DNA from: Allobosea sp.
GTDB lineage: Bacteria > Pseudomonadota > Alphaproteobacteria > Rhizobiales > Beijerinckiaceae
Direction of reading: 5' to 3'
Length of the DNA: 64,000 bases
Assembly (NCBI RefSeq): GCF_017308075.1
Contig: NZ_JAFKFX010000029.1
Coordinates: forward strand, 161,691-225,690
In this document: one piece after another, positions 1 through 31,891 of the stretch
How positions within the stretch are numbered: position 1 is the stretch's first letter
Layout of the letters: every line of letters starts with the position of its first letter
The notes under the pieces: generated by a model
What the model was told of the DNA's origin: nothing
Seen by the model: the letters and a program-made list of their open reading frames with translations, nothing else
The model's database searches: none
Position numbers and translations under genes: made by a program

Positions 1-274
1 CGTGGAGCTTCATTTCGAGCCCTTCGATGACGACGCACATCGGCTCGGCGAACGCCTCGCAGTCGTCGAGGTCGAGACAAGCTTCGTTGTATTCCTCCCG
101 GGTCAGCTCACGCACGCGATACTCAAAATCCCCAGCGGAATACATCGCGGCGATCTCAGCGTAGAGCGAGCGGCACTTTTCGGCTTCCGCCTTCGTACCC
201 AGCGCGAAGAAGGCCCTCTCCAGCACGCTGTCGTCGATATCGAAATACAAATCCTCTTCGTTCCGATCAAACAT
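1..274 (-). CDS. Hypothetical acidic protein, partial (3' end outside window)
   Basis: The reading frame runs leftward from an ATG at 274 and stays open to the window edge, giving 91 codons without a stop. The protein begins MFDRNEEDLYFDIDDSVLER and is strongly acidic. A good Shine-Dalgarno sequence (GGAGG) lies just upstream. No family was recognised. It is followed on the right by about 290 bases without a clear gene, then by the terminator of the paralog array. A small acidic protein beside this array could belong to the same mobile element, but that is inference. Confidence 0.6.
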   Translation of the reverse strand, partial: MFDRNEEDLYFDIDDSVLERAFFALGTKAEAEKCRSLYAEIAAMYSAGDFEYRVRELTREEYNEACLDLDDCEAFAEPMCVVIEGLEMKLH

Positions 275-614: not shown

Positions 615-1565
615 TTACAGTTCGCCAGCCGCGGCGGACATGAAGCGGTCGCTCTGGCGCGCGATGAGATCGCCGGTGTCGAGAGCAAGCAAGACCAGAG
701 CCCGGAGATGGTCAGGATCGTTGCTGCGGAACGCAGCGAGAGATTTCACCATCGACTTCGTCTCCAGATCAGCCTCGCTCCGGGCTGGCCAGAGACCGAC
801 CCTGGCGAGGCGGGCATAGGCAAGCATGAGCGCAGCCCGACGGGCAGCGTCGACCATTTCGGCGGGATGATCTTCGTCCTGCGACCAGCGATCGCTCCGC
901 TGCAGGAGTCCGTGCGCCTGCGTCAGGAGATCCGTCAGGTCGGGCGGCGCGACGAAATACCCTTCGAGGCTGCGCGCGTTCTCCAGCCGGTAGGCACCGG
1001 GCTCCCCCGGCCGGACACTGCGATCGTCGGTGGGCTCGGGCAGGATGGCGCCGACATAGCGCGCCATGGCGGTGACGGAATCCGAGAGGGTGGCTGCGTC
1101 ATCAAGGCGGTATTCCTTGACGCGAGGCGGTGTCCCGCTGGCGAAACGCAACAGAAGATCGGCTTCACTCTTGTTCTTGCTGCGCCTTGCGGCACGTTTG
1201 TGCACGTGGGCGATCTCGGCCTGAGCCCAGCGGTCCTCCTCGGTCCGCGCCGGGGCGAGCATCTGTGCGAGATGGCCGGCACGTGCAAGGATCGTCAGCG
1301 CCCTCGCCGTATCCAGGCGGGCCTCAAGGCCCTCCGGGTCATCGCCCATCAGGATGATGAAGCGGTCCATCTGCCTCTCATGCGTCAGGGCGCGGCCGCG
1401 GATGTCGAGGATCGACGGCGTCTGGCCGCCGAGGATGGCGAAGCGTTCGATCTCGTCCGGCCCTTCGGGCAGGAGCCGTTCCAGCCCGGTCAGTTCATCG
1501 GTGATCGGGAAGGTGAGCGGATCGAGTTTCAGGTCGGACAGCGAGCTGGGCGTGCTGGAGGACAT
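615..1565 (-). CDS. Two-repeat hypothetical protein A of the paralog array
   Basis: 316 residues from the ATG at 1565; the frame is open further upstream, but the next gene's hairpin lies there. No known family was recognised. Two copies of a helical unit ending in a Pro-Ala-Arg motif can be seen: PARTEED at residues 105-111 and WPARSEADLETK at 259-270. The first 120 residues align with those of the gene at 2821-3762 (shared DL.L.P, TDEL.G, GRAL, RF, ALT.L). The motif also appears in the genes at 1708-2700 and 5286-5741, so all four look like divergent paralogs. No signal peptide or membrane segment is visible, so a cytoplasmic protein is likely. It is last in the leftward series and is followed by a terminator-like hairpin. 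Function unknown. Confidence 0.75.
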   Translation of the reverse strand: MSSSTPSSLSDLKLDPLTFPITDELTGLERLLPEGPDEIERFAILGGQTPSILDIRGRALTHERQMDRFIILMGDDPEGLEARLDTARALTILARAGHLAQMLAPARTEEDRWAQAEIAHVHKRAARRSKNKSEADLLLRFASGTPPRVKEYRLDDAATLSDSVTAMARYVGAILPEPTDDRSVRPGEPGAYRLENARSLEGYFVAPPDLTDLLTQAHGLLQRSDRWSQDEDHPAEMVDAARRAALMLAYARLARVGLWPARSEADLETKSMVKSLAAFRSNDPDHLRALVLLALDTGDLIARQSDRFMSAAAGEL

Positions 1566-1637
1566 GTTCGGTATTCTCTCGTTTCTCAGGGGTGAGCTGC
1601 TCCGGGCAGTCGCTTTCCTCCCTCTCCCCGCAACCAA

Positions 1638-1670
1638 ACGAGGCGACGCCCCGGGGGGACGCCGCCTCGT
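1638..1670. terminator. Intergenic GC-rich hairpin
   Basis: ACGAGGCG (1638-1645) is the perfect complement of CGCCTCGT (1663-1670), with a G/C-rich loop that can pair further. On the minus strand it is followed by TTTGG. It separates the genes ending at 1708 and starting at 1565. It may terminate or attenuate transcription, or protect a processed mRNA end. Confidence 0.5.
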
Positions 1671-1707
1671 GCGCGCTATGGTCCGCTATCGACAACGCGA
1701 ATGTGGT

Positions 1708-2700
1708 TCAGACGATCTCGATCCAGTCGGTCGTGAAGAGCGCCTGATCATGCAGTCCGAGCCGGCGATGGACCCAGATCGCCTCGTCGACCAGGTGGCG
1801 AACGATCGCCTGCTGGTGCAGCGGGTCCGGGCGGCAGGCACGATCGTTGACGATCCGCGCGACGGCGCGCTTCTCGGCCATGTCCGCCCTGGAGCGCGCC
1901 GGCCAGATCACCGCCTGGCAGGCGGCCAGGTAAGCCAGGATCTGAGCCCCCTCGGCGGCGAGCCGCAGGTCAAGGCTCTTGCCATCCTCATTCCTGCGCG
2001 CGAGATCGAACAGGCGTTCCGCGGTCGCGAACATCGCGACGACGCGCTCGCGCAAGCCGCCGAAGTCGGGGCCGCTGCGGGCGAACGCGATCCACATCTC
2101 CGGGGCGAGGTCGAGAACCGGCTGGCCGCCACGGATCGGCAGAAGGTCGCGCAGATCGTACCGCCGGCGCGGCCAGACCGCGAGGTTGCGGTCGTCGGGA
2201 CCGGGCGCCGGCGGCGCCGGCGGAACGGTCAGCTCGCCCACGTTGAACGCCGCCCGCATCACCCGGATGCGGCGTGCGGTCGTCGCGTCGAGCGACGCGA
2301 CATAGTCGGGCTCCTGGTCGGTGCCGTACGGACCCCGCCCGTCCGCGAGGGCGCGCTTGGCATCGACCTCGTCGAGGCTGTCGGCCGGCCAGGCGCAGAC
2401 CAGGCCGTCGCAGAGGAGCGCGGCGAGCTCCATGGCGGCCGCGATCGTTCCCGCCTCGCGATGCCGATCATCGGCATAGGCGACCCGATGGGCCTCGTGG
2501 TCGAGCTGCCGCGACACCCGCGCGGCCTCCTTGAGGTCGGGCCGGCTCCGGCGGAAGGCGATGAGATCTGCGAGCGTCGGATCCTCGCCGAAGCCGGAGG
2601 TCAGCACTTCGATCGGATCGCGGAAGCGCGTTCCCTCGCGAAGCGCGAGGCTGCTGGTCCTGGGCGGCGGCAGCCGGCCCTGATCGTTCTTCTTGGACAT
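1708..2700 (-). CDS. Two-repeat hypothetical protein B of the paralog array
   Basis: 330 residues from the ATG at 2700 (MSKKNDQGRL). It has no recognised family. Two copies of the array motif are clear: WPADSLDEVDAK at residues 104-115 and WPARSRADMAEK at 266-277. Each follows a hydrophobic Ala/Leu-rich helix. The C-terminal copy closely resembles that of the neighbour at 615-1565 (LAY, then WPARS.AD...K). A Pro-rich linker (residues 160-168) separates the halves, suggesting two repeat domains. No signal peptide or transmembrane segment is seen. The gene is flanked by hairpins on both sides, so each gene may be expressed or processed as its own unit. Confidence 0.75.
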   Translation of the reverse strand: MSKKNDQGRLPPPRTSSLALREGTRFRDPIEVLTSGFGEDPTLADLIAFRRSRPDLKEAARVSRQLDHEAHRVAYADDRHREAGTIAAAMELAALLCDGLVCAWPADSLDEVDAKRALADGRGPYGTDQEPDYVASLDATTARRIRVMRAAFNVGELTVPPAPPAPGPDDRNLAVWPRRRYDLRDLLPIRGGQPVLDLAPEMWIAFARSGPDFGGLRERVVAMFATAERLFDLARRNEDGKSLDLRLAAEGAQILAYLAACQAVIWPARSRADMAEKRAVARIVNDRACRPDPLHQQAIVRHLVDEAIWVHRRLGLHDQALFTTDWIEIV

Positions 2701-2765
2701 GATGGGATCTTTCCATGGGGGTGACAGCCATCTCGACTGCATCCCCGTCCCGGTCCCTGGAATCG

Positions 2766-2794
2766 CGAAGGGGCGCTCCGGGAGCGCCCCTTCG
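2766..2794. terminator. Perfect 14-bp inverted repeat hairpin
   Basis: CGAAGGGGCGCTCC (2766-2779) is followed by its exact reverse complement at 2781-2794. The stem is very stable and lies between the genes at 1708-2700 and 2821-3762. No long T run follows on either strand, so it may be an mRNA-end or attenuation structure rather than a classical terminator. Confidence 0.55.
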
Positions 2795-2820
2795 TCTTCT
2801 CCGGCTCCGTGCTCGAACGC

Positions 2821-3762
2821 TCAGTCCCCCCGGGCCGCAATGGCGAGATCACGCGCTGTATTGCTGAGCTCGCCGATGACGCCGCCGGTCAGGGCGGCGA
2901 AGGCGACGATGCTCTGCAGCCTCGCCTCGGGCAGGCGCGGCGCGAGTGCGAGCGCGCGCTCCTTCGCGGCCGCGCCTTCCACGACGAGGTCGGCATAGAG
3001 ACAGGCGCGGGCGAGATCGACCGTCGCCAGCAGGATGGCTCCGCTGCGAGCGCGCTCGAGCCGATCGCGCGCTTCATGGCCAGGGTCACCGTCGGCGATC
3101 GCACGCGCGATGCGGTCGGCATCGTCGAGCTGGAGCCCGGCGCGAGCGACGAGCGCCGCGACCTGTGGAAGGTCCTGCATGAAGGCGACCAGGCTCAAAC
3201 CCTGCTCCAGGCCGACCATGGCGGGCACGCCCTCGCGGATGAGCGTGGCAGCGGGCGGGACGGCCCCAGCCAGCACGAAGGTCCGGCGCTGCTGCTCGCC
3301 GATCGCAATCGACAGCAGGCGGATCCCGAACGCGAGCGCCGCCGCTTCGACCATGGCGAGATCGTCGGACTGGCGGAGCCTGGAATCGACGCTCCCGGCG
3401 ATGAACTCACGTGCCAGCAGATCGTCTGCGGTTCGCGGCGGCATGATCGCCACCGCGATGACCGAGGCGGCGTTGAGCAGCGTCAGCGCGGTGAGCATGT
3501 CGAGGCAGGCGATCGCCTGCGGCTTTGCCGAGGCCTGGGCGAGCGCGAGGAAGCGCTCGGTCTCCTGCCCGAAGCCGAGCGCACGACCCGCCACAGTGCT
3601 GATCGGGAAGCGCTCGCCTACGAAGGCGGCATAGGCGCCGTCGCGATCACCGGAGTGAAGAAGCCTGCGCGCGATGCCGTCGAGCTCGTCGGTGACGGGC
3701 CGGATCACGGGCTCGAGCACAAGGTCGGCAAAGGTGGTGGCGGTCGGGTTGTCGGTCTGCAT
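2821..3762 (-). CDS. Two-repeat hypothetical protein C of the paralog array
   Basis: 313 residues from the ATG at 3762. The N-terminal half aligns end to end with protein A at 615-1565: both have DL.L.P near residue 14, TDEL.G near 25, GRAL near 60, and a Pro-Arg-Thr motif at about 108 (PPRTADD here). The second half keeps the helical pattern, but its motif has decayed. The protein is rich in Ala and Leu and is predicted all-helical. No signal peptide is seen. It lies between hairpins and next to the exonuclease gene, read in the same direction. Its function is unknown, and no toxin, phage or transfer family was recognised. Confidence 0.75.
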   Translation of the reverse strand: MQTDNPTATTFADLVLEPVIRPVTDELDGIARRLLHSGDRDGAYAAFVGERFPISTVAGRALGFGQETERFLALAQASAKPQAIACLDMLTALTLLNAASVIAVAIMPPRTADDLLAREFIAGSVDSRLRQSDDLAMVEAAALAFGIRLLSIAIGEQQRRTFVLAGAVPPAATLIREGVPAMVGLEQGLSLVAFMQDLPQVAALVARAGLQLDDADRIARAIADGDPGHEARDRLERARSGAILLATVDLARACLYADLVVEGAAAKERALALAPRLPEARLQSIVAFAALTGGVIGELSNTARDLAIAARGD

Positions 3763-3828
3763 ATCGGATCCAGAGGTTTTTGGGGGTTACTGCCTCCGTG
3801 GCAGCGCCTCTGCGCTTTCCGTCCGAAC

Positions 3829-3851
3829 GGCCGGCGTCCGGGACGCCGGCC
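3829..3851. terminator. Perfect 11-bp inverted repeat hairpin
   Basis: GGCCGGCGTCC (3829-3839) and GGACGCCGGCC (3841-3851) form a perfect stem between the exonuclease gene and paralog C. It is the fourth hairpin in an intergenic space of this array. Confidence 0.55.
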
Positions 3852-3865
3852 TCTCTCTCTCTCCA

Positions 3866-5275
3866 TCATGCCGCCAATCGCTGGTGGTCGCTGCACTCGC
3901 GCAGCCAACGCTCGATCGCATCGAGATGGGCATGACGATCGGCATCCTGCGGATCGAGCGTGGCGCGCAGGTCCGCGACCTCGATGAGCGCCTTTGGCAG
4001 GGTCAGCCAGGGCACGTCCTCCTCGGTCGTCAGCCGCTCACGCAGCCAGTCGCGGCCCTTGCACCAGGCTTCGGGCGCGAGGCATTCCGGCGCCTCCAGA
4101 AACATCTGGCGGTTGGCGAAGGCCTGGAGGCGGACGTCCCCCATATGCTTCGTGAGCGCGCCCCTCTGATCCCAGGGCAGTTCGTGCCAGCGCTCGCAGA
4201 CGCGAACGTCGGCATCCGACAGGAACCCGCCCGAGTACAGCGTGGCTTCCGGGAAGGGCGACGGCTCACGGCCAGCGAAGCGGTTCTTCAGCGCCGCGGT
4301 GAGATGGTGCCGGAAGGCTGGATGCTGGCGGATCATGCGGGCCCGGTCGTGGTAGACCGCGTCATCGAGCCGCTCGGCTGGGAGCGCATGCTGCGCGTCG
4401 TCCCAGCCGAACAGGATCGGCTGCGAGTTCGCCTTCACCATCCGGATCGGCCGCGCGCCGGAGCGCGTCAGCAATGACGCGATCTCTTCCGCGGTACCGT
4501 CGAGATAGCTCGCAGGATCGATCGAAAGATCGGCGGTGGCCCAGGATGTCGCATTGTCGGGGTTCGGCATGATGCCGACGGCCGGCACCAGCGCCGAGTG
4601 ACCACCAAGGCAGATGAGATCACCACGTGCTAGCAGCCGGATCGGTCCCGATTTATGGGCATTGGCGAGCATGAGTTCGACCGTCCGCGGTGCGCGCGCC
4701 TTCAGCAACCGAAACAGCGCGAGCGTGGCGCGGGCATCGAACAGCGCGTCATGCGCCTCGTCCTCGCCGAGCTGGATTCCATTGGCCCGGCAGACGGCGC
4801 CGAGCTTGAGCGAGCGCTTGCCGCTGCCGTCGACGGGGATCGTGATCGCGCCAGGTTCCAGTATGATCGCCGCCCGCAGCATGACCAGAAGATCGGCCCG
4901 CTTCAGGCCTGCTCCTTGCGTCGCATAGGGCGGCAGGAGATGGCTGAAGAAGGAGTGCCGCAGCACCTCCTCGTCATATTGCAAGGTGTTGTAACCGAGG
5001 ATCGTCGCGGGCGACCACGCCCCGATCGCCCGGGCGATCTGGCCGAGCATGTCGAGGCTCGACATCGGCGCCTGCTCCAGCTGCTCCGGACGGACGCCGG
5101 TGGTCAGCAGCGCGCCGGGGCTCGGCACGATATGGGCCGGAAGGGCGCAGCGCAGCGAGAGCTCGCCGAGCGGGCGCAGTTCCTCATCCGTGTGGATGAG
5201 GGCGGCCTGCAAGGGCACGTTCCAGGCCGGATCGAGGCCGGTGGTCTCGAGATCGTAGATGATGAAGGCGGACAT
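3866..5275 (-). CDS. ExoI (SbcB)-like DEDDh 3'-5' exonuclease
   Basis: About 469 residues from the internal ATG (MSAFIIYDLETTGLD); a GTG further upstream would overlap the next gene. The DEDDh active site is complete. Asp8 and Glu10 are in YDLETTG, Asp101 is in GYNTLQYDEE, and His175 and Asp180 are in the EAHDALFDAR stretch. The segments around the first Asp/Glu pair and PSPGALLTTG near residue 52 resemble exodeoxyribonuclease I rather than DNA polymerase III epsilon. E. coli ExoI has about 475 residues, so the length fits. It probably degrades single-stranded DNA from the 3' end in the cytoplasm. Its place inside an array of unknown paralogs is unusual and suggests a DNA-processing role for the element. 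Confidence 0.85.
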   Translation of the reverse strand: MSAFIIYDLETTGLDPAWNVPLQAALIHTDEELRPLGELSLRCALPAHIVPSPGALLTTGVRPEQLEQAPMSSLDMLGQIARAIGAWSPATILGYNTLQYDEEVLRHSFFSHLLPPYATQGAGLKRADLLVMLRAAIILEPGAITIPVDGSGKRSLKLGAVCRANGIQLGEDEAHDALFDARATLALFRLLKARAPRTVELMLANAHKSGPIRLLARGDLICLGGHSALVPAVGIMPNPDNATSWATADLSIDPASYLDGTAEEIASLLTRSGARPIRMVKANSQPILFGWDDAQHALPAERLDDAVYHDRARMIRQHPAFRHHLTAALKNRFAGREPSPFPEATLYSGGFLSDADVRVCERWHELPWDQRGALTKHMGDVRLQAFANRQMFLEAPECLAPEAWCKGRDWLRERLTTEEDVPWLTLPKALIEVADLRATLDPQDADRHAHLDAIERWLRECSDHQRLAA

Positions 5276-5285
5276 GGCGGCGATC

Positions 5286-5741
5286 CTACTGCACGCCGCC
5301 GGGGCCGGCATCGTACCGCGCCTTGCGCAGTTCGATGCCGAGATCGACACCGTCGAAATGCATCGCCAACTCCACCATCGACGCCGTCCGCGAGCGCTCC
5401 ATCTCGCCCGGCAGGAAGCTCATCATCTCGTAGATCTGGATCTTCTGTTCGAGCTCGGCCTCGTCACGTGCCGGAGCCTCGGCGATCAGCAGCGCGAAGG
5501 TCCGCGCCATCGACCGCGCGCCCTCCGCCATCTGGCGGCCGCTCAGGCCACCGTGATCATCATGCGCGTGGTCGCCGTCATGATCGAGAAGCAGCGCATG
5601 GGCCAGCGCCGCCTGCCACATCGGAAACATCCGGGCGTGCTCGGTGCTGAGCCGATAGGCCCGCGCATAGCGTGCGAGGTCAGCGGCCGTCGGGCGCGCA
5701 TCGTCCTCCGCGGTCGCGGCGCCGTCGTTCATCATACTCAT
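5286..5741 (-). CDS. Short, His-rich member D of the paralog array
   Basis: 151 residues from the ATG at 5741 (MSMMNDGAAT); other ATGs lie one to three codons further in. It has one copy of the array motif, APARDEAELEQK at residues 89-100, preceded by an Ala/Leu-rich helix as in the larger paralogs. It therefore looks like a one-repeat version. A His/Asp-rich stretch (residues 52-63, DHDGDHAHDDHG) could bind metal, but that is only a suggestion. It lies about 10 bases upstream of the exonuclease start, so the two genes are probably co-transcribed and first in the leftward operon. Confidence 0.65.
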   Translation of the reverse strand: MSMMNDGAATAEDDARPTAADLARYARAYRLSTEHARMFPMWQAALAHALLLDHDGDHAHDDHGGLSGRQMAEGARSMARTFALLIAEAPARDEAELEQKIQIYEMMSFLPGEMERSRTASMVELAMHFDGVDLGIELRKARYDAGPGGVQ

Positions 5742-6181
5742 CGGTAGTCCGTTCCGGTTCCAGGACCCGGGACGGCTCACCTGCTCATTCCCGGGGGTTC
5801 CCGACACTGGGTTCCGGAATCCGCTCGCTTGCCTGACATCAGGCGAGGATCCGCCTCCGCCCGCTCCCGCTACGAAGGAGAAAGGGTGGCCCGTTGTTGA
5901 CGCCTAGGTGGTCCTGTGTGGATGGCTCCCGCGTTGCAAGGGGGTCTGTGACAGTTTGGCGTGCTGGTCGGGTGCAGTCTTGTGTCCGGCCTGTTCGCGC
6001 GGTCATCGACCGCTGGCCCTGATGGTTTCCGCGGATAAAGGTCCCATTCTGCTTTGCGGGCTTCGACGCCCTCGACATTCGGCGGGTTGTCCTCATCCCC
6101 GGTCAGACCGGTGCGCCATCATCTCACAGGGTCCTCGCAACCTCCTTCGCGCGGGTAGCGCGCTGATTGGGCTACTGATCC
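5742..6181. other. Intergenic stretch, probable promoter and IS110 end
   Basis: No convincing gene was found. It should contain the promoter of the leftward array and the outer end of the IS110-family element that begins near 6180. Frames on both strands lack a family match or ribosome site. Confidence 0.4.
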
Positions 6182-6478: not shown

Positions 6479-7523
6479 GAGCCTCGGATTTGAAATCGGA
6501 ATCTGTGGGATTCCCTTGAGGGCGGCTTTGTGATTCACGGTTTTGGAGGTGGATCATGGGTCGCAGCTATTCGTCTGATCTTCGCGAACGGGTTGCCGGC
6601 TTCGTCGCGGCGGGGCATTCGCGTCGTGCGGCGGCGCGTCATTTCGGGGTGAGCGAGAGCTTTGCGGTAAAGCTGCTTCAGCGCGCGACCCGCCTGAAGA
6701 CGTTGCGGCCGGCGCGGCAGGGACGTCCGCCCGGCAGCAGGCTGGACGCGCACGGCGCCTTCCTGGTGGCCCAGGTCGAGGCCACGCCCGACATCACCAT
6801 GCCGGAGCTCGCCGCCCGGTTGGTCCAGGCGACGGGGGTGAGTGCGGCGCCGGCGGTTTTGTCGCGGTTCCTGTGCCGGCTGGGCTTCACATATAAAAAA
6901 AGCGCTGATGGCGTCGGAATGCGCACGCGCTGACATCGCTGAGCAGCGCACCCTCTGGATCACGCGCCGCCAGCCGCTGATGCGGCTCGAGCCTCATAGG
7001 CTCGTCTTCATCGACGAGACCGCGATCACCACCAAGATGGTCCGGCTGCGCGGCCGCAGCCAGCGCGGAGAGAGGCTGCCCGCCTCGGCGCCCTTCGGCC
7101 ATTGGCGCACCCAGAGCTTCATCGCGGCTCTGCGCTGCCACGGGCTGACCGCGCCGTGGATCGTCGACAAGGCCATGGATCGCGTCGCCTTCGATCTCTA
7201 CATCGAGACCCAGCTCGCGCCGACGCTCTCGAAGGGCGACATCGTCATCCTCGACAATCTCGCCGTCCACAAAAGCGACCGCGCCGCCCGATGCCTTGCC
7301 GAAAGAGGCGCCTGGTTCCTCTTCCTGCCGCCCTACAGCCCGGACCTGAACCCAATCGAGATGGCCTTCGCAAAGCTCAAGGCCCATCTCAGGCGCAGCG
7401 CCGCAAGAACATTCGACGCCCTCTGGAAGGCCGTCGGAGACATCTGCGAGATCGTCACACCAGCCGAATGCAGAAACCTCTTTAGACACGCAGGATATGC
7501 GTCAGATTAAACGTCCGACGCTC
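6479..7523 (+). mobile_element. Complete IS630-family insertion sequence
   Basis: A 1045-bp element is flanked by direct TA dinucleotides at 6477-6478 and 7524-7525. The terminal inverted repeats are GAGCCTCGGATTTG on the left and, reading inward from the right, GAGCGTCGGACGTT. The empty site reads CTAG, matching the known CTAG/TA preference of IS630. The element contains one transposase gene in two frames and looks intact. Confidence 0.85.
6556..7510 (+). CDS. IS630-family DDE transposase (two overlapping frames)
   Basis: Frame 1 (6556-6933, 125 residues) begins MGRSYSSDLRERVAGFVAAG and encodes the N-terminal helix-turn-helix. Frame 2 (to 7510) holds the catalytic domain, with Asp in FIDETAI, Asp in VILDNLAVHK and Glu in DLNPIEMAF. 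The two frames cross at a run of seven A residues after ACATAT near 6894-6901. Frame 2 is +1 relative to frame 1, so a +1 ribosomal shift, or loss of one A in the transcript, would give the full enzyme of about 318 residues. Two-frame transposases are common in this family. A sequencing error is the alternative. Confidence 0.8.
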
Positions 7524-8522
7524 TAGGCCGCGAACTGACGTCCGGAGCGGAACTGGGTCGGATCGGTGACGGTGGCCGCCAACGCGCTTGCTCCGAGCAG
7601 GCCCACGCCCGGCACGGTGGCGATGCGCTGCGCGAGATCGCTCGATCGGTACCAGGCCAGCAAGTCTCGTTCGAGCTGGCGGATGCGGTCCTGAGCCTCG
7701 ATTGCTTGCTCGGCCAAGGCGCTGATCACCTTGGCGGCGAGATCGGGAACCCCGAACGCGCCACCGGCCACAGCGCGTCGGGCGAAGGCCAAGGCGTGGG
7801 TGATGCCCTTCGGGATATCGATGCCAAACTCGGCCAGGAGCCCACGGATCATGTTGATGAGTTGCGTACGCTGACAAACGAGGAGGTCGCGGGTGCGATG
7901 AAGCGCGAGCGCGGCCTGCTGCTCGACCGACTTGATCGGAACAAAGCGCATGGTCGGGCGCGTGACCGACTCGCAGATCGCCTCCGCATCAGCGGCGTCG
8001 GTCTTGCCCCGCTTCACATATGGCTTGACGTAGGCCGTAGGCATCAATCGCACAGTATGACCCAGAGCGGTCAGTTCGCGCGCCCGTTGATGACTCGTGC
8101 CGCAAGCCTCCATGCCGATCAGGCAAGGCGCAAGCTTGCGGAAGAAGGGAATCACCTGAGCTCGCCTCAGCGCTCGTCGGGCGAGGACCTCTCCCGTTCC
8201 ACCGATAGCGTGCACCTGGAAGACATTCTTGGCCAGATCGATGCCGACAGTCGTGATCTCCATCGTGGTCGCTCCAAGCTCGTGCTGCGTGACAGCACCA
8301 CTGTGGCGCCGCAACGCCGGGAGCGGGAGCCATCCACCCCATCTGCTTTCGGACGGGTCGGCTTTTCTGGCTTCCTTTACCCTCGATGGATCGATGGAGC
8401 TAGATTGCTCACGCAGACTCAGCGGAACACGAGCAGACGCACACGGTGTCCGCCGTCGGCGATCGCATCCCTGGCTGGGGCCTGCATCCGTTGAAGGCCA
8501 TAATGTCTGATGCTCACTGCGC

Positions 8523-23747: not shown

Positions 23748-26267
23748 TCATCCTCCTACCCTGTCCCAACCGGGATCGCCCGCTCTCGCATTGCTGCGAC
23801 GGCCGATCTGCTCGAGCGAGGCGGCTGCGGCCGGCTCGCCCGCCCGACGCAGCGCCGATGCCGCCGCGAAGATGTGTCGCTGGGTGTTCGAGGCCCAACC
23901 GGTTACGGCTGCCTTCTGCTTCTCCGACCCGGTCTCATGGAGCGTACGCAAGCCGTCCATGATATCCGGCCCCAGGGCTCGCGCGACCGCCGCCGTGAGA
24001 TCCGTGCTCCACCCTTGCGACATGTGTCGCAGGGCGATGCCGGCGAGGACGCGGCTCTCCTTCGGAACGGTGTTGAAGTCGAACGTCGCCAGCCTTTCGG
24101 AGGGCCGAGCGCCTCGCGCTTTCCGCGTCCTCTCGCTCTTCCCCTTGCGTTCATCGATGAGCGCGTGCGCATCGGCCCGGTGCGCCTTCGCCTGATCCCT
24201 CAGGATTGCCACGACCATGAAGCCCGCACCGATCGCGATCGGAAAGCTCGCCCCGGCGAGAAGCCCACCCGATATCGCCAGGGCGAAGGCGGCCTTTTGC
24301 AGGGCTGTGGTCTGCAAGATGCGCGCAGCGCGGAAGGCACGGTCGATCCGTCTTTGCAGGAGACGTTGAGCCTCCTGCTCCGCAGCGCGGATCGCTGCGC
24401 GCCGTGCCTTCCGCGACATGTCGCCGTCGCGACGCGGCTCCTGCGCGCGTTTGCGGCGCACCTCGGAGAAGACGTGATCATGCTCGCCGTCGATCGCCGC
24501 CTCGAACAGGCCGCAACGGACTTCGCGATCGACCTGCGCCTCGGCGCGGCGATGGGCCGCGATCAAGCCATCTCGGATGACGTCCTCCAGGGGACGTGCC
24601 TGTGCCCTCAGGAGGGCGAGGTCGTCAGGAGTGATGGCCATCGCCCCAGGGGCGGTCGGCGTGAGTTGCGACTGAAGATCATGGGCCATGCCGGTCGCCA
24701 GGTGAACTGCCATCAGAATGCCTGGCTTGTCCCCAAGCGCGATCTCGAAGCCGGCTTCGGCGAAGGCGCGAGGGAGCGGTAGGGATGAACTCATCGAGGC
24801 CATGGCAGAAGCGAGAAGCTGTTGGGACGCCGCAGGCCGCATGGTTGTCCGGTCCGCATGCCGGCGGTTCGGCGGTGGAAGGCCGGCCATCCTCGACGCG
24901 ACATCGCCATCGAACATCACCTGGCCGACCGCCGACCGAAAATTCCTTCCCGCGCCCTGGCCGGTTCTATGTTTCTGCTCGCGACTATCCAGCAAGGTGC
25001 GTGTAAGGGATTGCCGTTGGCTGGCCTCGATGGCGGCCGGCAGGAGAACTCCTCCCCCCATCCGCATGGCGAAGTCAGGGCCTGCCAGGAGAGTACCGGA
25101 GGCCGCCAGACCAGCGACCTCCTTGCGCCGAGCTGGCGTCGGCAAGATTCGAGCAGCGCGTAGTGCGCGATTGGCCCTTCGTTCCTGAAGGATACTGGCT
25201 GTCTGTTCTGCGGCACGGATCGCGATGCGCCGGGCCTGTTGCGACATCTCTTCGTCGCCGCGCGGGCTTTTCGCGCGCCTGCGGCGCTGCTCGGCGAAAA
25301 ACGGGTCGAGGTCGCCGTCGACGGCGGCCTCGAACAGGCCCCTGCAGATCTCGCGATCGACATTGGCCTCAGCACGGCGGTGAGAGGCAACCAGGCCGCT
25401 GCGGACGACCTCAGCCAGTCGACGGGCCTGCGATCGGAGGATGCCAAGATCCTCGTCGCTGATGACCATTGGTTCTGGGACGATCTTCTTGAGCGACCGC
25501 GCCAGCGAATAGGCAGCCCCGGAAGACATGTGGACAGCCATCAGCACCTCCCGCCTGTCGCCGAGTGCGATCGCAAAACCCGCACGGGAGAGGGCACGAG
25601 GAACTGGCAAGGCAGGGCCGGACGAGGCTAGCGCAGCCGCGAGCAGACGTCGGAACTCGACCGGCCGCATTTTCGTCCGCGCGCCCTGCTGCCTGTCTGC
25701 CTCGGTATCGCGATCTCGATTCCGGACCGGTTCGTATTGAGCGAGCACCTCGGCCATGGCGATCTCGCCGCGCGCATGGAGGGCTTCCGCGTTCTTCTGG
25801 ATCCGCGGTCCGGGCACGATCTGCTCGCCGAACTCGAGCTCGAGGATGCGGCCGGCCAGTTCGTCGGCCCTGTAGTTCAGCTTCGACGACAGGACCCGCC
25901 CGGTCGCCGGATTCACGGCCGCATAGAGCAGGTGAACATGGGAGGGGCGCCTGCCCTTCTTGTGGACGATCACCTTTCGCGGCTGATCGGCCGGGATCCC
26001 GTGCTCGCGCTCGACGACCTCGATCATCCTGAGCAATCCCACCTCGTCGAGCGCCAGGAACGGCGAGCATTTGATGTGCGCGACCGTGATCCTCGCCCGC
26101 ACGTTCGACGCGCTCAGCGCGGAGAACATCTGCAACGCCCGATCGAGATCGGCTGGGCAGTCCCGGTCCAGATCGGTCCGGTCCACGACGCGCTCGTTAT
26201 TCTCGGCGTCGAGAAGGTGCCGGACCCGGTCCGGGTCGTCGCCGACGAAGCTGGAGCGGATGATCAC
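23748..26267 (-). CDS. Relaxase (MOBP-like) with an internally duplicated C-terminal region
   Basis: 839 residues from a GTG at 26267, which overlaps the upstream stop as GTGA (MIIRSSFVGDDPDRVRHLL). Residues 1-160 are the relaxase domain; the metal-binding motif is PSHVHLLYAAVNP at about 108-120. The position where many MOBP enzymes have the catalytic Tyr reads RHLLDAENNERV here, so the Tyr is not visible. Residues 200-409 and 476-686 are two diverged copies of the same unit (MRP..., LP.PRA...AGF.IALGD, SHRRAEA.VDRE, RRAIRAAEQ-like). Each ends in a hydrophobic stretch that may touch the membrane. It would nick at oriT and lead the strand during conjugative transfer. The partner gene is the MobC/TraJ-like gene upstream. 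Confidence 0.85.
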   Translation of the reverse strand: MIIRSSFVGDDPDRVRHLLDAENNERVVDRTDLDRDCPADLDRALQMFSALSASNVRARITVAHIKCSPFLALDEVGLLRMIEVVEREHGIPADQPRKVIVHKKGRRPSHVHLLYAAVNPATGRVLSSKLNYRADELAGRILELEFGEQIVPGPRIQKNAEALHARGEIAMAEVLAQYEPVRNRDRDTEADRQQGARTKMRPVEFRRLLAAALASSGPALPVPRALSRAGFAIALGDRREVLMAVHMSSGAAYSLARSLKKIVPEPMVISDEDLGILRSQARRLAEVVRSGLVASHRRAEANVDREICRGLFEAAVDGDLDPFFAEQRRRRAKSPRGDEEMSQQARRIAIRAAEQTASILQERRANRALRAARILPTPARRKEVAGLAASGTLLAGPDFAMRMGGGVLLPAAIEASQRQSLTRTLLDSREQKHRTGQGAGRNFRSAVGQVMFDGDVASRMAGLPPPNRRHADRTTMRPAASQQLLASAMASMSSSLPLPRAFAEAGFEIALGDKPGILMAVHLATGMAHDLQSQLTPTAPGAMAITPDDLALLRAQARPLEDVIRDGLIAAHRRAEAQVDREVRCGLFEAAIDGEHDHVFSEVRRKRAQEPRRDGDMSRKARRAAIRAAEQEAQRLLQRRIDRAFRAARILQTTALQKAAFALAISGGLLAGASFPIAIGAGFMVVAILRDQAKAHRADAHALIDERKGKSERTRKARGARPSERLATFDFNTVPKESRVLAGIALRHMSQGWSTDLTAAVARALGPDIMDGLRTLHETGSEKQKAAVTGWASNTQRHIFAAASALRRAGEPAAAASLEQIGRRSNARAGDPGWDRVGG

Positions 26268-26647
26268 GACCGGCGCCGCTTCAGCGTCGCGATCACGCAC
26301 GCGAGCGCCGCCTCGAGAACGCTCTGCAGGCGGTCAAGATCCGGAATCGCATCCGCATGCCTTCCGTCGGCATTGAGGCGTGCCGCAATCTGGTTCAGCT
26401 TGTTTTCTAGGCGCCCGAGGTCGCCGAGGAGCTGTCGCAGGATCGCGGCGTTCGCGACGGCACGGCGCACGTGGTTCAGCTTTGCCACCATGCCCAGGTC
26501 GCGGGCGACGATCCTGCGCGCGAACTGGCCGGCGGTGAGCCCCTGCGCGGCCGCCACTTCCATCAACCTGGCCCGATCGGCTGGCGGCAGCCTGAAGCTG
26601 ACCGGTCGCATAAGGCCCTTGTCTTTCTCTTCATGTTGGATCGCCAT
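26264..26647 (-). CDS. MobC/TraJ-like relaxosome accessory protein
   Basis: 127 residues from the ATG at 26647 (MAIQHEEKDKGLMRPVSFRL). The ribbon-helix-helix region is RPVSFRLPPADRARLMEVAA, followed by GLTAGQFARRIVA. The MobC-type segment ILRQLLGDLGRLENKLNQIA follows at about residues 70-90. Such proteins bind oriT and help the relaxase open the DNA. It overlaps the relaxase start by four bases (GTGA), so the two are translated together, as with traJ-traI of RP4. Confidence 0.82.
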   Translation of the reverse strand: MAIQHEEKDKGLMRPVSFRLPPADRARLMEVAAAQGLTAGQFARRIVARDLGMVAKLNHVRRAVANAAILRQLLGDLGRLENKLNQIAARLNADGRHADAIPDLDRLQSVLEAALACVIATLKRRRS

Positions 26648-29701: not shown

Positions 29702-31891
29702 ATGAAATCCCGTCCGGCTGAATCCGCGACCGAAGTCCTGGCGGGCCTCGTCGAGCGCGTGACGTTCCACAATGACGAGAACGGCTTCGCGGTCCTGCGT
29801 GTGAAGGCGCGCGGCAAGCGTGATCTCGTCACCGTCGTCGGACACGCCGCCGTCATCTCCGCGGGCGAGTTCATCCAGGCGAGCGGCGAATGGGCGAACG
29901 ATCGCCAGCACGGCCTTCAGTTCCGGGCGCGCTTCCTCAAGGCGACGCCGCCGACCACTGTCGAGGGCATCGAGAAGTACCTCGGTTCCGGCATGATCCG
30001 CGGCATCGGACCGGTCTATGCCAGGAAGTTGGTGCGCGCGTTCGGCGAGACGGTCTTCGATGTCATCGAGGCCGAGCCGGAGCGGTTGCGCGAGGTGACG
30101 GGCATCGGACCGAAACGGGCAGAGCGGATTGTCGCCGGCTGGGCCGAGCAGCGCGTCATCCGCGAGATCATGATCTTCCTGCATGCGAATGGCGTCGGCA
30201 CCTCGCGGGCGGTCCGCATCTACAAGACCTATGGCAATGACGCGATCCAGCTCATCTCGGAGGATCCGTACCGGCTAGCGCGGGATATTCGCGGCATCGG
30301 CTTCCGCACCGCCGACGCCGTGGCGATGAAGCTCGGTATCGAGAAGACCGCGATGATCCGCGCTCGCGCCGGCATTTCCTATGTGCTGACCGTGGCTCTC
30401 GACGACGGGCATTGCGGCCTACCGAGCGACAAGCTGCGACCTCTCGCCATGGAGCTCCTGGATATTCCGGAAGCCGTGATCATCGACGCGTTGAGACTCG
30501 AGCTCGAAGCCGGCGCCGTCATCACCGACACGGTCGAGGACCATCCTTGTGTGTTCCTCGCCGGGCTCTACCGGGCCGAGCAGTCGATCGTGTCGCGTCT
30601 CACAGCCCTGAAATCCGGCCCCACACCCTGGCCCGAGATCGACGCGGGGAAAGCGATCCCCTGGGTCGAGGAGAAGACCGGACTGATGTTGGCCGAAAGC
30701 CAGAAGGCGGCGGTGCGCACCGCGCTCGCCTCCAAGCTCATGGTGATCACAGGCGGGCCCGGCGTCGGCAAGACGACGCTGGTCAACTCTGTCCTGAAGA
30801 TCCTCGCCGCCAAGCGCATAGACCTGCTGCTTTGCGCACCCACCGGCCGCGCCGCGAAGCGCATGACGGAGACCACAGGCCGGGAGGCGAAGACCATCCA
30901 CCGGCTGCTGGAGGTCGATCCCAGGACCGGCGGCTTCAAGCGCAACGACGAGAACCCGCTTTCCTGCGAGCTGCTCGTCGTCGACGAGACCTCCATGGTC
31001 GACGTCGTACTGATGAACGCGCTGCTGAAGGCCGTGCCGGACGATGCGGCGGTGATCTTCGTCGGCGACGTCGACCAGCTGCCGCCCGTGGGGCCGGGCC
31101 AGGCGCTCGCCGACATCATCGCAAGCGGGGCCGTACCCGTCGTCCATCTGACCGAGGTGTTCCGGCAGGCTGCGCAGAGCCAGATCATCCAGAGCGCCCA
31201 TCGGATCAATACCGGCCTACTTCCCGATCTCGCGAAGCCGGAAGGCGAGACCGATTTCTATTTCGTGCCGGCAGACAGTCCCGAGGTCGCCGTGCCGCGG
31301 CTGATCGAGATCGTCCGGGAGCGCATTCCGCGCCGCTTCGGCGTCGACCCGGTCCGCGACATCCAGGTGCTCTGCCCCATGAACCGGGGCGGCGTCGGGG
31401 CTCGCTCGCTCAACATCGAGCTGCAGGAGGCGCTCAACTCGGGTACCGAGCCGCGCGTTGAGAAGTTCGGCACCACCTTCGCCATCGGCGACAAGGTCAT
31501 GCAGATCGAGAACGACTACGACAAGGAGGTCTATAACGGCGATGTCGGCTTCGTCGAGGCGATCGATCTCGACACGGGTGAGATGGCGATCGGCTTCGAC
31601 GGCCGCTCGGTCTCCTTCCAGTTCGGAGAACTCGACCAGGTGGTGCTCGCCTACGCCACCACGATCCACAAATCGCAGGGCTCTGAATATCCGGTCGTGG
31701 TCATCCCGGTCCTGACCCAGCACTACGCCATGCTGCAGCGGAATCTGCTCTACACCGGCGTCACACGCGGCAGGCGCCTCGTCGTCCTGCTCGGCCAGAA
31801 AAAGGCCATCGCCATAGCCGCGAAGAATACGTCGGGCAGGCGGCGATGGTCGAAGCTAAGGGAGTGGCTGGCGCCGGGTGATCGCACTTGA
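29702..31891 (+). CDS. RecD2-type SF1B DNA helicase
   Basis: 729 residues. The RecD2 N-terminal OB-like region and helix-hairpin-helix motifs (MIRGIGPVYARKL near 98-110; VTGIGPKRAERIV near 132-144; RGIGFRTAD near 197) come first. Walker A is ITGGPGVGKTTLV at about 349-361 and Walker B LLVVDETSMVD. The C-terminal motif VI region has TTIHKSQGSEYPVV and NLLYTGVTRGRR. RecD2 helicases unwind DNA 5' to 3' without RecBC. On a mobile element it may serve transfer, replication or repair. A nearly identical fragment of the 3' end of another copy lies at 51000-51198. Confidence 0.92.
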   Translation: MKSRPAESATEVLAGLVERVTFHNDENGFAVLRVKARGKRDLVTVVGHAAVISAGEFIQASGEWANDRQHGLQFRARFLKATPPTTVEGIEKYLGSGMIRGIGPVYARKLVRAFGETVFDVIEAEPERLREVTGIGPKRAERIVAGWAEQRVIREIMIFLHANGVGTSRAVRIYKTYGNDAIQLISEDPYRLARDIRGIGFRTADAVAMKLGIEKTAMIRARAGISYVLTVALDDGHCGLPSDKLRPLAMELLDIPEAVIIDALRLELEAGAVITDTVEDHPCVFLAGLYRAEQSIVSRLTALKSGPTPWPEIDAGKAIPWVEEKTGLMLAESQKAAVRTALASKLMVITGGPGVGKTTLVNSVLKILAAKRIDLLLCAPTGRAAKRMTETTGREAKTIHRLLEVDPRTGGFKRNDENPLSCELLVVDETSMVDVVLMNALLKAVPDDAAVIFVGDVDQLPPVGPGQALADIIASGAVPVVHLTEVFRQAAQSQIIQSAHRINTGLLPDLAKPEGETDFYFVPADSPEVAVPRLIEIVRERIPRRFGVDPVRDIQVLCPMNRGGVGARSLNIELQEALNSGTEPRVEKFGTTFAIGDKVMQIENDYDKEVYNGDVGFVEAIDLDTGEMAIGFDGRSVSFQFGELDQVVLAYATTIHKSQGSEYPVVVIPVLTQHYAMLQRNLLYTGVTRGRRLVVLLGQKKAIAIAAKNTSGRRRWSKLREWLAPGDRT

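Follow-up and report, generated by a model that had tools for sequence, protein, structure and literature searches.

A conserved operon of an exonuclease I-like gene, an AAA ATPase gene and orphan gene families, with its own upstream element, at the integrase-proximal end of tRNA-integrated Bosea islands

Exonuclease I is best known from repair in Escherichia coli. In the 5.55-Mb genome of an Allobosea sp. (assembly GCF_017308075.1), an exonuclease I-like (ExoI) gene is part of an operon with orphan gene families in the stretch of DNA analysed here, called the window throughout, which comprises the final 64 kb of the 225,690-base contig NZ_JAFKFX010000029.1. Parts of this operon resemble described systems. 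The ExoI protein has the domain and the DEDDh residues in common with Exonuclease I/SbcB (PF08411; PDB 1fxx, 4rg8); it belongs, however, to an island-borne subfamily below the equivalog cut-off. Its likeness to the SbcB associated with defence-associated reverse transcriptases (DRT) consists in a score of 253.6 bits with the PADLOC model RTasSbcB; no reverse transcriptase family was matched among the scanned operon genes, and the model probably reflects ExoI in general. A second operon protein has the Lon-type AAA module of the Lon protease but no matched protease domain, and a third, RW, has the motif order of T5orf172/GIY-YIG proteins, by eye and partly by hhalign. In position, the operon can be compared with the hotspot between psu and int of P4-like satellites, where the content beside int varies in the account given in passages of PMC9122126. 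As far as these passages go, both lie on the integrase side of a mobile element with defence genes nearby, whereas in Bosea the operon beside the integrase keeps its composition and it is the genes beyond it that vary.

In the window, the operon and the sequences ahead of it comprise:

5792..5815, minus strand: operator/promoter-like element GGAACCC-N6-GGGAACCCCCG, 50 bases ahead of the ATG of D (5741)
5749..5775, minus strand: leader inverted repeat CCGTCCCGG..CCGGAACGG with GGAAC half-sites, directly before the D start (from alignment and folds)
5286..5741, minus strand: D, 151 residues, first gene of the operon, orphan family, open frame
3866..5272, minus strand: ExoI-like DEDDh exonuclease of the island-borne subfamily, start near 5272-5275
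2821..3762, minus strand: C, 313 residues, helical protein of the A family with two units, the second motif looking degenerate by eye, open frame
1708..2700, minus strand: B, 330 residues, two-unit helical protein of the B family, open frame
615..1565, minus strand: A, 316 residues, two-unit all-helical protein, open frame
2..274, minus strand: N-terminal 91 residues of a 141-residue open reading frame (ORF) that separates A from the following A-family gene (outside the window)

An earlier note on this DNA had described an array of paralogues with an exonuclease in one leftward run; the run is real, yet this description was incomplete, as the operon extends left beyond the window. There it continues with the 141-residue ORF (no Pfam family above cut-off), two A-family genes, a Lon-type AAA ATPase gene and a changed copy of RW, and farther left follow chemotaxis and insertion-sequence genes (read from the ORFs), an intact RW, a tyrosine integrase and tRNA-Leu(CAG). 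In total, the locus holds four A genes, one B and one D. An A-gene fragment beside the intact RW (L008:7622-7828) and the second, changed RW copy beside AAA (L008:15283-16257) are signs of two recombined cassettes. A second cassette, with RW, B, A, AAA, ExoI and D, is found on contig C40 of the same genome (L010:4227-11211); no recombinase was seen in the 4.2 kb from its RW to the contig end.

The same gene set recurs in other genomes. A scan of genome contigs for ExoI gave 215 relatives, 80 of which were kept, and the 13 loci (from 11 genomes) at ≥49% identity to the window protein were examined; among the 80, the next relatives have ≤35% identity. Ten of the 13 loci are labelled Bosea, and one each comes from a Rhizobiales isolate and from metagenome-assembled genomes of Beijerinckiaceae and Hyphomicrobiales. 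All 13 contain D, ExoI, one to four A genes, AAA and RW, and 12 contain B (absent from L027); with the window included, D is present in 14/14 (the window and L019-L031). The A/B paralogues number one to six per locus. The usual order is D-ExoI-(A/B)n-AAA-RW, from which L026, L029, L030 and G000b deviate by having AAA directly after ExoI, and G544a, G544b and G538b by having A and B genes also past RW. The genes are thus found together in other genomes, as the earlier note had expected: they travel with the exonuclease in 13/13 loci of the ExoI subfamily and in 24 of 25 A-positive genomes.

These cassettes lie at the integrase-proximal end of islands integrated at tRNA genes. In 20 of 25 cassette loci, a recombinase is found on the side away from D, at most about 3.5 kb from the last operon gene; this count includes L031, whose recombinase scores 21.4 against a Pfam cut-off of 27.1. 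The candidate in G538b goes unrecognised by Pfam, and no recombinase was seen in G000b, L021, L023 and L028, each of which reaches the contig or locus end within 4.2 kb. A tRNA gene is located on the same side in 18 of the 25, and the tRNAs include Leu(CAG), Glu, Gln, Arg, Gly, Met, Asp and Ser. Since the recombinases differ in kind (DUF6538-type tyrosine, other tyrosine and one serine), the module is not tied to a single integrase. Repeats of the tRNA 3' end, the trait of a genomic island or integrative mobilisable element next to an integrase at a tRNA, suggest the limits of several islands: in G571, tRNA-Leu ends at 73788 and 214669 would give an island of ~141 kb, and in G544, ends at 878381, 975008 and 1126463 are read as two tandem islands of ~97 and 151 kb, either of which has an integrase and a cassette of its own at the left end (the tandem cassettes at this one tRNA-Leu are L135-L138, G544:C1:870000-909999 and 965000-1004999). 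In G528, the second copy of the tRNA-Leu end has one mismatch and is found at a distance of 2.2 Mb. In the window's own genome, 15.5 kb separate the window from the tRNA on its left, and contig C29 carries another perfect copy of the tRNA end, so that the window is probably inside an island. The array was thus rightly suspected of being carried by a mobile element, here an integrated one with integrase, tRNA and end repeats. By the one component searched for, a VirD4-type coupling protein (PF02534), it is not an integrative and conjugative element: the search gave no match in G000, G544 and G538, and the match in G571 lies beyond the island. The islands therefore look mobilisable rather than self-transmissible, and some of them hold a relaxase. 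A contig of a viral collection (L105:1-2700) has the RW end and an integrase in its first bases (5.3 of 17.4 kb seen) and may be an island end rather than a virus.

The operon has its own upstream element. Allowing at most two substitutions and a spacer of 5-8, a copy precedes D in 13 of 14 loci, L029 being without one; in L025 it falls inside an over-long D frame call, and L030 has an extra weak match inside RW. Across the 67 genomes of the genus Bosea, the element with at most two mismatches gave 44 matches versus 14 for the pattern read backwards. The 28 perfect copies all precede a cassette or cassette remnants: 26 are situated ~0.5 kb before a cassette ExoI on the same strand, and two (G132, G551) precede remnants, namely D in two frames and short D, ExoI and B pieces. 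The order sample contains it in one of 397 genomes, the window's own. No column exceeds 1 bit in the 60 bases upstream of the 24 distinct perfect elements. The leader inverted repeat is common but not general; 18 of 19 leaders, selected from 24 distinct leaders for a CCGT(T/C)(T/C) core, could be aligned. That the element occurs solely before one operon suggests autoregulation by an operon product. Two D-ExoI pairs of G528 (L152, L153) also bear a perfect element and represent either rearranged cassettes or a separate two-gene form.

The operon is patchily distributed. Among the 67 genomes, RW is present in 27, A in 25, ExoI in 26 and all three in 24 (co-occurrence of A and ExoI: Fisher 8e-15). 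An A gene is found within 10 kb of 40 of 46 ExoI places, a count that leaves out three ExoI rows of 28-40 bits and A rows below ~174 bits (fragments, B genes picked up with the A profile and a part of the diverged copies) and merges two G585 pieces. RW stands alone in G550 and G561, and up to four ExoI copies occur in one genome (G574). Outside the genus the families become rare in searches that scored at most six (order) or five (class) candidates per genome, in which distant relatives could be missed: RW was found in two of the 397 order genomes (the window's own and another whose match contains a stop) and A in one of 385 of the class sample, again the window's own. With protein A as a single query, 4 of 149 family genomes matched, three of them in the genus, and a search of a plasmid collection with A gave no relative. 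The operon is undescribed in the literature searched (titles and abstract openings, most subscription literature being outside the search) and in the passages of PMC13174585 and PMC9122126 consulted.

Between relative cassettes (pairs >45% identical), all six operon families have ratios of nonsynonymous to synonymous substitution rates (dN/dS) of 0.10-0.45, and the window's D, ExoI, C and B give 0.20-0.36 against L019; for the window's A there is no value, since none of the pairs tried gave it a relative above 45% identity. Such constraint indicates that the operon frames are genes and not artefacts of G+C-rich DNA with many antisense frames. The ExoI protein matches PF08411 with 61.9 bits (cut-off 27) and PF00929 with 22.6 bits, slightly below the cut-off of 24; it scores 180.8 bits with the NCBIfam equivalog NF008746, below the 260 required, and aligns with PDB 4rg8 at E 5.7e-46. 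The residues D, E, D, H and D are kept in 13/13 aligned sequences (the window and L019-L030), which bears out the claim that the exonuclease in the run is intact and of the ExoI type. L031, whose ExoI frame is split in two (L031:9998-11411, Bosea vaviloviae SD260) although its remaining operon families have unbroken frames, was omitted from this alignment.

The proteins around ExoI are diverged paralogues at least in part. Profiles were built from 25 A-family, 18 B-family and 14 D sequences of 14 loci (the window and L019-L031, with L008 for the left flank) and their halves compared. The two halves of A match each other at E 3.2e-6 and those of B at 2.4e-7; between the families, A_C-B_C gives 6.9e-14, A_N-B_C 2.0e-6, A_N-B_N 2.6e-4 and A_C-B_N 1.8e-4. 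Of 26 control pairs that used AAA, RW or ExoI segments, 25 scored 0.042-0.93 and one 0.0023. As the half-profile values lie beyond these controls, A and B each contain two units and belong to one superfamily; with composition correction, BLAST matches between members of the two families reach 4.6e-10 (set of 32 proteins). Of the four paralogues proposed in the earlier note to share a unit, A, B and C are accordingly related, with two units each in A and B, but D as a one-unit member is not established from its sequence: its best half-profile match (B_C, 0.0066; others 0.067-0.29) beats 25 of the 26 controls and loses to one, whole-profile comparisons give 0.021 and 0.11, and a BLAST match to A at 1.65e-4 without composition correction has no counterpart at 1e-3 with it. 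The likeness of A and C, claimed for the first 120 residues, is genuine homology and longer, spanning 217 residues with composition correction (E 7e-11, same set) and ~310 without. A is predicted to be all-helical (AlphaFold2, mean predicted local distance difference test score 90.7), with no convincing relative of the predicted fold among solved structures. No published family had been recognised for these proteins, and none emerged: the window's A, B, C and D have no match in Pfam, NCBIfam or PADLOC and none better than E 0.15 in PHROGs, so the units do not fall into different known families.

The operon AAA profile matches the Lon AAA domain (E 2.7e-36) over ~160 of 391 positions, and the protein matches PF00004 with 43.7 bits (cut-off 21.2). 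The Lon matches end in the AAA region, no protease domain is matched and the lon equivalog gives 66 of 608 bits. RW, the last gene in the usual order, is an orphan family with the motifs G-x-Y, K-x-S-x-T, R-x-x-L and E-x-x-LH. Its 14 members match only BAT (0.023) and DUF1707 (0.22) in Pfam, one member each, and no GIY-YIG-type family. An RW relative with 34% identity lies near repABC on plasmid pNBC550 of Bosea sp. NBC_00550 (L134:15794-16657), where no further operon family was matched in the surrounding 32.6 kb.

We tentatively read the operon as a core island module, a nuclease/ATPase machine that would act on island or competing DNA at transfer, its substrate, complex, regulation and timing being inferred. 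It could work in the following manner: D, A and B may form an all-helical scaffold that places a protease-less Lon-type AAA+ ring and ExoI on DNA. The ring would remodel a nucleoprotein substrate, ExoI would remove 3' single strands, and RW, being weakly GIY-YIG-like, may nick. An operon product would repress its own operon via the GGAAC half-sites, and the operon may be switched on at island excision or at entry into a new cell. As an outcome, the island DNA would be processed and established, or the DNA of a competing element cleared. The most far-reaching form of the proposal is doubtful, namely a new autoregulated multi-subunit DNA machine in which two-unit adaptors surround the AAA+ ring and ExoI, RW is a highly changed GIY-YIG nuclease, the islands exchange integrases yet retain the machine, and DNA is policed or processed at island transfer.

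Several observations weigh against the core-module reading. The islands surveyed are all cassette-bearing, so that a core module and a frequent passenger both fit. The cassettes G528a, G528b and G538d have no adjacent D and ExoI, and in G528 two D-ExoI pairs lie ~2 Mb from the A-AAA-RW-integrase parts. Six of the 46 ExoI places are without A within 10 kb: the two G528 pairs, G148:C12 (760 bits) and three with lower scores (G587, G560, G539:C1). The assignment of RW to GIY-YIG is weak, and known defence genes flank D in at least four of 10 loci (L020, L025, L030, L031).

The last point leads to the strongest rival, a possible new island-borne anti-phage or anti-plasmid system in which A and B sense the invader, AAA+ drives assembly and ExoI, perhaps with RW, degrades DNA. 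The genes past D vary between loci (10 loci and 79 frames were covered, with the best 25 of 129 and 25 of 64 families and nine frames scanned singly) and include GajA-like genes in L025 and L030, QatA and QatC in L025, a cyclase of the type found in cyclic oligonucleotide-based antiphage signalling systems (CBASS) with TRIP13 in L031, and E1-like and UvrD-like genes in L020. A nuclease and ATPase operon with one to six diverged A/B paralogues over 13 loci would suit defence, as would its patchy presence in 25 of 67 genomes and the dN/dS of A, on the whole the highest (0.21-0.45 in nine pairs, against 0.20-0.26 in four ExoI pairs). In PADLOC, however, ExoI alone is matched (RTasSbcB, DEDDh and PDC-S48), whereas A, B, C, D, AAA and RW are not; the operon stays next to the integrase, with gene content that differs between loci only beyond D, and every complete copy with long flanks has a recombinase or a candidate, the four with at most 4.2 kb of flank aside. 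The core-module reading is ahead, with the defence system close behind.

It is improbable that the operon is a passenger placed by recombination at the integrase end, where it would give the host a repair ExoI in a mostly ExoI-less genus. Only two of 42 A-less genomes match the ExoI profile, both more weakly (G560 and G587; 228 and 266 bits), as this explanation would have it, but the 42 manage without an A gene, a single genome can hold four ExoI copies, and a repair role does not call for the conserved partner genes. That A, B, C and D are unrelated and alike only through their Ala/Leu composition is possible for D, but is refuted for A, B and C by half-profile values far past 25 of the 26 controls and well past the last one and by the composition-corrected A-B matches, so that as a general explanation it has almost no probability.

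Further genes on the far side of D concern the islands themselves. A relaxase (PF03432) is encoded near D in L027 (64.0 bits) and L030 (25.6 bits, cut-off 24.6). The window encodes a relaxase-like protein (23751-26300), 45% identical to the L030 protein over 422 residues and itself without a Pfam match, and a RecD2-type helicase (29702-31888), both probably in the same island as the operon. Upstream of the operon are two transposase genes, IS630-like and IS110-like (6556-8314), with 88% and 92% identity to Bosea plasmid DNA.

The recurring gene set and the regulatory element that belongs to it characterise a group of large islands within a single genus, and the operon brings together orphan protein families and an exonuclease known from repair. 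As an island module, it would provide a handle on the movement of islands although three of the four genomes searched gave no coupling protein; as a defence system, it would be new.

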